From positions 1 through 64,000 of the forward strand of contig NZ_FXTD01000005.1 of NCBI RefSeq assembly GCF_900182635.1: a stretch of 64,000 nucleotides of DNA, given 5' to 3'. Below are positions 3,490-60,388 of this stretch, in pieces. The first letter of the stretch is position 1, and every line of letters starts with the position of its first letter. The notes under the pieces were generated by a model, which was given only the letters and a program-made list of their open reading frames with translations, was not told where the DNA came from and searched no databases. Source of the DNA: Halorubrum cibi. GTDB lineage: Archaea > Halobacteriota > Halobacteria > Halobacteriales > Haloferacaceae. A program made the position numbers and the translations under genes.

Positions 3490-3985
3490 TGAATACACCC
3501 GCCTTTAGGCGGGTGATGAAACCGACATGGCGTTGGATTTCCAGCGATAGTCATACGGCCGGAGTTTCCAATGTGTACTTTCAAGTGGAAAGAACCGCTA
3601 TACAATGGCAAGGTTAGGTCGGAACAAAGCAGATTCCGAACGACCTTTGGAGGCGGCCTGTCCGCCCACAGTAACGAGGCAGTATCCGAAATGCCGATGT
3701 GGTGAACACGAATCCTCGGGGGGTTCGTCTCGTGCCTGTCGGCCTGAGCAAGCCCAAAGGTACCTCCAAATCCGCTGACGCACCAGCGATCCTCTGCTGG
3801 CAAAAACAACAGGTGAGGGTCAACGGTGCCGAGGATAGGAGTAACGGCCACTTGGCATGGCCAGGCAGCCACCGACCACGACGACTGGGTTAAACGAGCT
3901 CCCGTAAAGTGGCGGAGTCCGTGGTTACAAACCTGAAACTCCCACCGCTCGGGATTCCTCCGCCTTCAGGCGGAGGAGGATGTCA
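3490..3985. mobile_element. Non-autonomous IS200/IS605-type element with palindromic ends (PATE-like)
   Basis: A ~0.5 kb segment is bounded by two related stem-loops. The left one is CACCCGCC-TTTA-GGCGGGTG (3496-3515) and the right one is TCCTCCGCC-TTCA-GGCGGAGGA (3956-3977), followed by GGATGTCAAG. Palindromic ends with similar loops and no inverted terminal repeat are the signature of IS200/IS605-like elements, and short versions without tnpA/tnpB are known in haloarchaea as palindrome-associated transposable elements. The interior has no tnpA- or tnpB-like protein; the long minus-strand frame across it (3336-3872) has no recognisable domain. The last ~100 bases resemble the region downstream of tnpB in related elements, where a guide RNA is made, but this is an inference. 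Confidence 0.65.
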
Positions 3986-4087
3986 AGTCTTGAATGCTTG
4001 TAGAACGGGCGTTCGACGCTGATCGGGGTACGTAGAACGGGATCGTTGCTGTCGCGGTGAACTCGAATGCGGAGAACGTCTCTAAAA

Positions 4088-4291
4088 CCCCAATCGCGAG
4101 GCACTCCGCGCCTCTGGCAGCCGGCGGCGGAGCCGCCGGCGACTGCCCCTTTGAGTCCCACCCGACCGCGACCGCCCCGCACCTCACGCCTCCCCAGCCT
4201 CGTCGCTGGCGCGGAACCGCGCCAGCGACTCCCTCGCGGGCTCCTCGTGCCCTGCGGGGCACTCGGAGGCGCGCCACCGCTTGGGAGATCG
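4088..4291 (+). repeat. Hairpin-slot intergenic repeat, copy 1
   Basis: First of three copies of a repeat also found at 10017-10365 (inverted) and 60233-60388. Order of parts: CCCCAATCGCGAGG; a GC hairpin (9-bp stem, GGA loop, 4120-4140); GGCGACTGCCCCTTTGAGTC; the conserved block CCGCACCTCACGCCTCCCC followed by AGCCTCG; a variable slot holding a 13-bp perfect stem with an AA loop (4202-4214 with 4217-4229); CTCCCTCGCGGGCTCCTCG; a small hairpin GTGCCC-TGCG-GGGCAC (4247-4262); and the end GGAGGCGCGCCACCGC. No open reading frame is conserved between copies. It lies between the IS605-type element and tRNA-Gly. Confidence 0.8.
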
Positions 4292-9796: not shown

Positions 9797-10016
9797 CGCC
9801 GCGACGCGCCGGCGACATCGTCAGTCGATATCTCGTTCCGACTTGGTCGCGGTCATACAGCCACCTTTTTGATCGTCGGGTGCCCTCGCTCACTGCGTTC
9901 GCTTCGGGAACCACTCCTCGAAAAACCTGGAGGGAAAAATCCGACTCCGCCGTCTTCGACGGCTCCGTCGGTGAACCGCTCGCTTCGCTCGCGGATGCTC
10001 ATTACAGGCGAAGCAA

Positions 10017-10365
10017 CGATCACTTGTAATGCGGTGGCGCGCCTCCGAGCGTCCCAGAGGGACGCGAGGAGCCCGCGAGGGACGTCGCGAACGAAGTCGT
10101 TCGAAAGACCGGAGGTCTTTCGTGATGACGAAAATCTCCGATTTTCGAACCATGAGCGACGAGGCTGGGGAGGTGTGAGGTGCGGAGCTGTGTGGTTCGG
10201 GTGGGAATCAAAGGGGCAGTCGCCGGCGGCTCCGCCGCCGGCTGCCAGAGGCGCGGAGCGCCTCGCTGTCGCGAGGGCGACAGCGGCCGAAGTAAGCACC
10301 GCAGCGAGTGAGCAAAGCAAACGAACGAGGAGCACAACGAGGCCCCCGAGTCCTCGCGACTGGGG
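10017..10365 (-). repeat. Hairpin-slot intergenic repeat, copy 2 (longest)
   Basis: Inverted relative to copies 1 and 3. Read on the minus strand it starts with CCCCAGTCGCGAGG and carries an extra ~80-base stretch before the same GC hairpin as copy 1 (10222-10242). It then has the conserved CCGCACCTCACACCTCCCC block (about 10160-10185). The variable slot holds three successive stem-loops: 10129-10147 (CGAAAATC/GATTTTCG), 10102-10122 (CGAAAGACC/GGTCTTTCG) and 10088-10103 (CGAACGA/TCGTTCG). The closing hairpin GCGTCCC-AGA-GGGACGC is at 10049-10065 and the end is GCGCGCCACCGC. It fills much of the 739-base gap after the cyclophilin gene; the flanks 9797-10016 and 10366-10535 show no gene. Confidence 0.8.
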
Positions 10366-10535
10366 CTTTGGCGATGTTCGCTCCACCAGCAACGTTCCCG
10401 TTCTCATCAGCCCGATCTCCATCGAAACACCCGTCATATAGGCATCTTTCATCGACCAGTCGTTTCGAACGAAAACGTGCCGGAAAATAGGATCGCAACG
10501 GAGCCGACCACGACGCCGTGGTCGCGCCCCTCACC

Positions 10536-60232: not shown

Positions 60233-60388
60233 GCCCCGCACAGCCCCGCACTGCCCCGCACCTCACACCTCCCCAGCCTCGGCGGACGGTCCGTCGCGGG
60301 CGAGCCGCTCCGGCCCGCCGCCTCCCTCGCGCGGACTCCTCCCGCCCTTCGGGCGCTCGGAGGCACGCGCCACCGCACTACAGATCAG
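60233..60388 (+). repeat. Hairpin-slot intergenic repeat, copy 3 (shorter)
   Basis: It lacks the 5' CCCCA-G-TCGCGAGG block and the first GC hairpin of copies 1 and 2. The conserved CCGCACCTCACACCTCCCC plus AGCCTCG is present, the slot holds another GC-rich palindromic stretch (about 60280-60320), then CCTCCCTCGCGCGGACTCCT, the closing hairpin CGCCC-TTC-GGGCG (60343-60355) and GGAGGCACGCGCCACCGC. It fills the gap between folD and the metallophosphatase. Confidence 0.78.

Follow-up and report, generated by a model that had tools for sequence, protein, structure and literature searches.

The stretch of Halorubrum cibi DNA analysed here (the window; 64,000 nucleotides of contig NZ_FXTD01000005.1) carried three copies of an intergenic repeat, which a sequence-only reading had placed at 4088–4291, 10017–10365 and 60233–60388; copies and conserved blocks were present as that reading had given them. 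The intact element was approximately 300 bp long and modular, and the three window copies were pieces of this one element. On its G-rich strand, the order was an end block (GCGGTGGCGCG), a hairpin slot (hp2), a spacer (CGCGAGGGA), a second hairpin slot (hp1), a block (GAGGCTGGGGAGGCGTGAGGTGCGG), a variable linker, domain A (a rod of approximately 115 nt; GTGGGACTCAAAGGGGCAG ... CTGGGGCTTTGG) and one or more 3′ tandem units (GGTGTTCACCGC...). Between hp1 and domain A lay a conserved single strand rich in G (GAGGCUGGGGAGG-N-GUGAGGUGCGG). In hp2, and in most copies also in hp1, a 2 × 2 GA/GA loop separated the outer from the inner stem and a tri- or tetraloop closed the hairpin; the 2 × 2 TC/TC internal loop common to hp2, many hp1 and the rod is the same GA/GA loop seen on the opposite strand. 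Copy 2 contained all parts and copy 3 was without domain A. The RNA-like (G-rich) strand was the minus strand for copies 1 and 3 and the plus strand for copy 2. The following features were assigned:

4040–4082, minus: copy 1, 3′ unit on the RNA-like strand (GTTCACCGCGACAGCAACGATCC), common to most full copies
4083–4162, minus: copy 1, remnant of domain A, outer stem GGGACTCAAAGGGGCAGTCG..CGATTGGGGTTTTA kept and rod replaced by a nested E3 double hairpin
4163–4176, minus: copy 1, variable C-rich/G-rich linker
4177–4201, minus: copy 1, conserved block B1 (GAGGCTGGGGAGGCGTGAGGTGCGG on the RNA-like strand), 81 genome copies
4202–4229, minus: copy 1, hairpin slot hp1, perfect 12-bp stem
4230–4238, minus: copy 1, conserved spacer B2 (CGCGAGGGA), invariant columns in alignment A2
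4239–4270, minus: copy 1, hairpin slot hp2 with GA/GA internal loop
4271–4280, minus: copy 1, end block B3 (GCGGTGGCGC)
10001–10030, plus: copy 2, 5′ tail (ATTACAGGCGAAGCAACGATCACTTGTAAT); 46 of 215 copies, chiefly those of the two closest genomes, had a related tail
10031–10040, plus: copy 2, end block B3
10041–10073, plus: copy 2, hairpin slot hp2
10074–10082, plus: copy 2, conserved spacer B2
10083–10160, plus: copy 2, hairpin slot hp1 (GTCGC-GA-AC..GT-GA-GCGAC) with a nested 55-nt E2 at 10098–10152
10161–10185, plus: copy 2, conserved G-rich block B1
10201–10371, plus: copy 2, domain A (CAAAG-GGG-CAG..rod..CTG-GGG-CTTTG) with a nested E3 at approximately 10224–10272
60256–60280, minus: copy 3, conserved block B1, no domain A in the copy
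60281–60322, minus: copy 3, hairpin slot hp1, long GC-rich stem that differs in orthologous copies of relatives
60323–60331, minus: copy 3, conserved spacer B2
60332–60366, minus: copy 3, hairpin slot hp2
60367–60376, minus: copy 3, end block B3

The domain A of copy 2 was recovered by the covariance model of this domain, R1 (G000:C5:10253-10373:+, E 7.6e-14). The hairpins differed between the copies, as first described. The stem of copy 1 was perfect over 12 bp, copy 2 had a hairpin with an insert of 55 nt, and the stem of copy 3 was GC-rich. The sequence-only reading had located the copies correctly but made them too small, since the element continues past the side opposite hp2 into domain A and the 3′ units. 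The hairpins, which it had described as unrelated, are related in design, in which the TC/TC loop recurs from hp2 to many hp1 and the rod.

Further hairpin elements were nested in the copies. E2 (CGTTCGA-hp-TCGTGATGACGA-hp-TCGAACCA), the double hairpin in the hp1 loop of copy 2, was also present at L026, L254 and L268, and relatives (82–90%) were found on secondary replicons of Natronorubrum, Halomontanus, Natronosalvus and Natribaculum. A second double-hairpin family, E3 (AGCGAGG-hp-CCTCTGGCAGCCGGCG-hp-CGCCGGCGAC), occupied several different slots in both orientations (in the window at approximately 4097–4141 and 10224–10272; also L009, L016, L022 and L061). The third, E4 (CCACCGGAAGACGGTCC...GCGGGAACGCAC), was located between the linker and B1 at L013, L022, L032, L043, L061 and L064. 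In other genera, a different conserved stretch (CCCGGAATGGTCGGTCGCGAGCGA), with no intact TnpB ORF, replaced module B approximately 100–240 nt before domain A (L258, L272, L304, L307 and L308). Sequences resembling TnpB remnants, which precede some of the domain A copies of these genera, also contained no intact TnpB ORF and were rejected. Beside copy 1, at 3955–3990, the window contained a hairpin (CCTCCGCCTTCAGGCGGAGGAGG) which we take to resemble IS605-type ends, and the region left of copy 1 lay outside the syntenic matches in related genomes.

Copy number and distribution

Allowing up to two mismatches, the conserved block CCGCACCTCACNCCTCCCC was matched 81 times, 55 of them exactly, in this genome (G000; 3.18 Mb, 35 contigs; G001, G003 and so on denote the other genomes compared). 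Since the reversed pattern, used as a control, gave no matches in G000, the repeat is not due to chance. A search of Halorubrum genomes, as the earlier reading had proposed, returned the block from 51 of the 52 genomes of the genus, with tens to more than 100 copies in most of them. The refuting condition set in that reading (three places only, or part of a known insertion sequence or tRNA-linked element) thus did not hold, given the 81 sites, the 51 genomes and seven of eight TnpB loci without the element at their ends. In a sample of the order the exact block was otherwise rare and patchy. The named loci bearing it belonged to Halobellus captivus, a few MAGs and upwards of 20 species of Halorubrum.

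Domain A was detected with R1 in 203 of 293 Halobacteriales genomes (approximately 70%) and in 66 of 87 genera; strict filters were applied in this order-wide search, and its per-genome numbers are lower bounds (at most 11 given per genome). The number of R1 domain A copies was 60 in G000, 61 and 29 in two other genera of the same family, 6 to 19 in genus g37, and 1 to 40 over six genomes of g85, a genus of another family. All genome searches relied on a loose first pass. No matches to the element were obtained in phages or IMG/VR viral contigs. Among plasmids, a first query matched only via its nested insert, and a cleaner query gave a few secondary-replicon records.

No family of Rfam 15 was matched at gathering score, and a permissive scan of copy 2 gave spurious weak matches only. 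No prior description of the element was found in the open-licence literature searched, including by sequence string. The suggestion of a family of dispersed structured elements, undescribed in these sources, was therefore borne out. The element is a new class of dispersed structured element and probably a multicopy RNA family.

Base pairing and the strand apparently under selection

Alignment A1, comprising 72 domain A copies from many species, contained 31 pairs, 21 of which had changes on both sides. In total, 97.8% of its cells were paired and the covariation score was 0.449, compared to 81.6% and 0.155 ± 0.007 in shuffles and 26–40% and 0.02–0.06 with slid partners. Alignment A3 (31 matches, mostly from other genera), which was fitted to the model and hence leans towards it, had 94.8% of cells paired, two-sided changes in 26 of 31 pairs and a score of 0.563 vs. 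0.155. Compensatory changes, as required of a structured RNA, thus exceeded the controls in both alignments. The internal loops of A1 were almost fixed: GA/GA columns held G or A in 67–71 of the 72 copies, with neighbouring pairs varying freely, and the GGG/GGG loop was kept in 71–72 of 72. The latter (columns 17–19 and 128–130) adjoins further G-tracts, and it is conceivable from the sequence that these G-tract motifs form a quadruplex in molar potassium.

The consensus structure of R2, the model of module B, was poor owing to the lack of alignment in hp1, and pairing in this module was therefore measured hairpin by hairpin. Distinct hp2 stems were 95% paired, vs. 73.2 ± 1.4% (highest 77.4%) when 3′ arms were dealt among copies of equal stem length. 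Among 71 parsed copies, 62 distinct hp1 sequences were present. A single copy may, however, fold no better than its shuffles, as was the case for copy 3 (z −0.5), which weighs against the reading as an RNA. The payload proposed in the sequence-only reading is variable indeed, but it does not behave as cargo: the slots hold interchangeable stems, in which pairing and the fixed non-canonical loops are kept despite the turnover of sequence.

Near-perfect arms and a fast sequence turnover could also result from mutation itself, if template switching or palindrome correction kept the arms complementary without any selection. Such correction would erase mismatched loops, yet the tandem G.A and GGG/GGG loops were nearly invariant amid covarying pairs, and no strand asymmetry would be left by it. 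We consider this origin extremely improbable.

A strand asymmetry was present in the non-Watson–Crick pairs. Read on the C-rich strand, hp1 and hp2 together had 48 A.C and 11 G.T pairs, and the outer stem of domain A had approximately 118 and 28, respectively, with CG 93, TA 73, CA 38 and TG 3 at its clearest position. Read on the G-rich strand, G.U and A.C numbered 52 and 16 in A1 (p approximately 1e-5 assuming independent cells, which they are not) and 25 and 9 in A3; throughout, pair-cell counts are not independent events. The asymmetry of wobble pairs that marks a structured RNA was thus found in hp1 and hp2, in the domain A stem and in A1. As G.U exceeded A.C (approximately 4:1) only when the G-rich strand was read, selection apparently acts on that strand. 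Most simply, the selected strand would act as RNA; selection on the single-stranded DNA of the G-rich strand would also give an asymmetry of G.T over A.C. The C-rich strand had been considered as the transcript, on account of an upstream CTTATA motif, and was dropped because the wobble pairs favour the G-rich strand.

Genomic sites and mobility

None of 250 copies lay inside a predicted gene (gene calls were a simple codon-model prediction), in agreement with the location in gaps between genes noted at the outset, and no ORF was present in the copies examined, which likewise code for nothing shared. The copies were chromosomal and dispersed over all large contigs of G000; being dispersed, and not tandem repeats with unique spacers, they are not a CRISPR. 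Their neighbouring genes were convergent for 95 copies (the commonest pair type), divergent for 48 and tandem for 107 (G-rich strand co-directional in 43 and opposite in 64). In several low-copy genera, domain A was located 50–100 nt past a co-directional gene. This position, together with the exclusively intergenic location and the frequent convergent pairs, would suit an element that acts at the mRNA level (a 3′ UTR stabiliser, terminator or processing site, REP/BIME-like) rather than as an independent RNA. The 48 copies between divergent genes do not fit such a role, nor was the G-rich strand more often co-directional in the tandem pairs, which makes an mRNA-level element very improbable. 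Within the genus, a 3′-UTR role was not supported by this gene-orientation test.

At window locus 3, between convergent genes, G001, G005 and G022 carried a copy with altered or different hairpins and six more genomes had a longer version including domain A. In G003, G008, G011, G012, G024 and G033, the same site was a gap of 21–58 bp with no copy; these empty sites were too divergent to place element boundaries. Such presence/absence polymorphism at one site, as well as the high copy number and intergenic dispersal, would be expected of a non-autonomous mobile DNA with hairpins acting as single-stranded DNA, similar to the PATEs derived from IS200/IS605. An HUH (Y1) transposase would then bind the hairpins of one strand, with the blocks as recognition sites, and hairpin selection on one strand would also favour G.T over A.C. 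In Haloquadratum, the copies of PATEs are heterogeneous and lack inverted repeats, and their palindromes are near-terminal (PMC3119063). The high-copy genome G021 encodes one Y1 transposase. However, three of the four high-copy genomes checked were without one: Y1_Tnp (PF01797) was absent from G000, G001 and G014, each with approximately 76–122 copies. None of eight TnpB loci searched with R1 and R2 had element ends; one had a full element copy approximately 1.4 kb away, and one a weak degenerate element match just upstream of the TnpB ORF. Three hairpins and a 31-bp rod with fixed internal loops also far exceed two terminal hairpins, and in some low-copy genera copies were at the same, orthologous sites between genomes. 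A PATE-like origin thus appears unlikely to us.

Except in G000 and G001, TATA-like boxes occurred 10–20 bp outside the hp2 end/B3. Of 111 copies from species other than these two closest genomes, 30 had inverted TTATAA boxes at both ends, mostly 280–315 bp apart; the reported lack of inverted ends was therefore correct for the copies of G000 but not for other species of the genus. The boxes may be promoters or boundary repeats. As a promoter, they are slightly too near B3 for a start that retains all of hp2; their absence in G000 and in the genome closest to it, and their mirrored occurrence at the opposite end, would suit boundary repeats. Inverted CTTATAA boxes could bound a MITE-like element mobilised by a transposase of another family, the internal structure being incidental. 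No target-site duplication was recognised beside the inverted boxes, however, and neither an ORF-bearing domain A copy nor an element-sized copy with an ORF was found among the retrieved loci. The boxes were also absent in G000 despite the abundance of the element, and covariation across genera is not explained by incidental structure. A MITE-like origin is thus decidedly unlikely. As the earlier reading had held, the repeat is not a CRISPR and is probably not a classic MITE.

Hairpin turnover and the proposed element

Based on their flanks (mostly 82–96% identical), 26 loci had a copy in both G000 and G001. The comparison of turnover comprised the 16 of these at which both hairpins were parsed, unparsed pairs such as those with nested inserts being left out. 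Identity in the 16 orthologous pairs was 95% for B1, 57% for hp1 and 60% for hp2, with no hairpin identical, and in non-orthologous pairs it was 95, 53 and 58%, respectively. With B1 at 95%, hairpins at orthologous sites were no more alike than those at unrelated loci, indicating that whole hairpins are exchanged. Of 42 distinct hp1 sequences in G001, 10 were found exactly in G000. Near-identical tracts between loci of G000 often started at the hp1 edge (e.g. L053/L067, 99.2% over 266 nt) or inside domain A (e.g. L045/L054, 100% over 171 nt). The simplest reading of these tracts and shared hairpins is ectopic gene conversion between copies. At L016 and L082, the inner domain A was inverted between the stem arms, as though recombination across the hairpin had turned it over.

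With a probability of roughly 0.6, we interpret the repeat as a dispersed chromosomal multicopy structured-RNA element that is read from the G-rich strand and whose hairpins are swapped by ectopic conversion. From 5′ to 3′, the element comprises hp2, hp1, the G-rich single strand and domain A. Hp2 and hp1 each have an outer and an inner stem, usually set apart by a tandem GA/GA internal loop; domain A has an outer stem broken by the invariant GGG/GGG loop, followed by a rod of 2-bp helices split by tandem G.A loops. Acting as RNA, the molecule would be recognised by its fixed non-canonical loops and its G-rich strands, whereas the helices would serve as interchangeable struts. With the conserved blocks providing homology, ectopic gene conversion would swap whole hairpins, so that blocks stay alike and arms stay paired while stem sequences turn over. 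More tentatively, and as a reading that could well prove too broad, the element might represent a haloarchaea-wide, SINE-like class of RNA, in which hairpin cassettes are traded by ectopic conversion around fixed tandem-G.A and G-tract motifs, with possible quadruplexes in molar potassium.

Several known systems share part of this design. The REP/BIME elements of enterobacteria are high-copy intergenic palindromes; REPs, which depend on RAYT Y1 proteins for their mobilisation, are much smaller than the present element. To our knowledge, they have no sequence in common with it, and unlike in the REP/RAYT system, the Y1 protein was absent in three of the four genomes checked here. Rfam RNA families likewise have covarying helices, fixed internal loops and a spread over many genera, but the element differs from them in reaching more than 100 copies per genome and in its stem turnover at orthologous sites. 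The PATEs and SMRs of Haloquadratum walsbyi are also haloarchaeal, free of transposase and palindromic, with tens to hundreds of copies and nesting (PMC3119063). PATEs share ends with IS605-type transposons, whereas none were found for the present element; SMR-A is approximately 110 bp long with inverted terminal repeats, and neither strand-biased covariation nor hairpin exchange is part of the published description (PMC3119063).

The Allomyces DHE and sponge RHE, mitochondrial hairpin elements of fungi and sponges, are similarly short, GC-rich, intergenic and non-coding, and vary in copy number between close relatives; their transposition mechanism is given as unknown (PMC2800124). In sponge RHE, stems are conserved and loops vary, whereas in the haloarchaeal element stems vary and internal loops are fixed. 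Moreover, DHE and RHE are organellar, and the present element is larger, multi-domain, chromosomal and haloarchaea-wide. By analogy they are its nearest likeness, and a likeness only, as size, genome and variable part differ.

Haloarchaea are model archaea, yet an element that reaches more than 100 copies in a genome and occurs in most haloarchaeal genera sampled seemingly has no description in Rfam or the open literature searched. The annotation of hundreds of genomes is also affected. If the element is an RNA, it would be among the most abundant structured RNA gene families of archaea, and unusual in design, as its non-canonical loops are fixed and its helices disposable. Its hairpins make visible a selection for base pairing with almost no sequence constraint, and their replacement at orthologous sites renders the tempo and mechanism of ectopic gene conversion measurable in polyploid archaea. 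If the SINE-like reading were true, each genome would hold a large and fast-changing repertoire of RNAs that are structurally equivalent but different in sequence.
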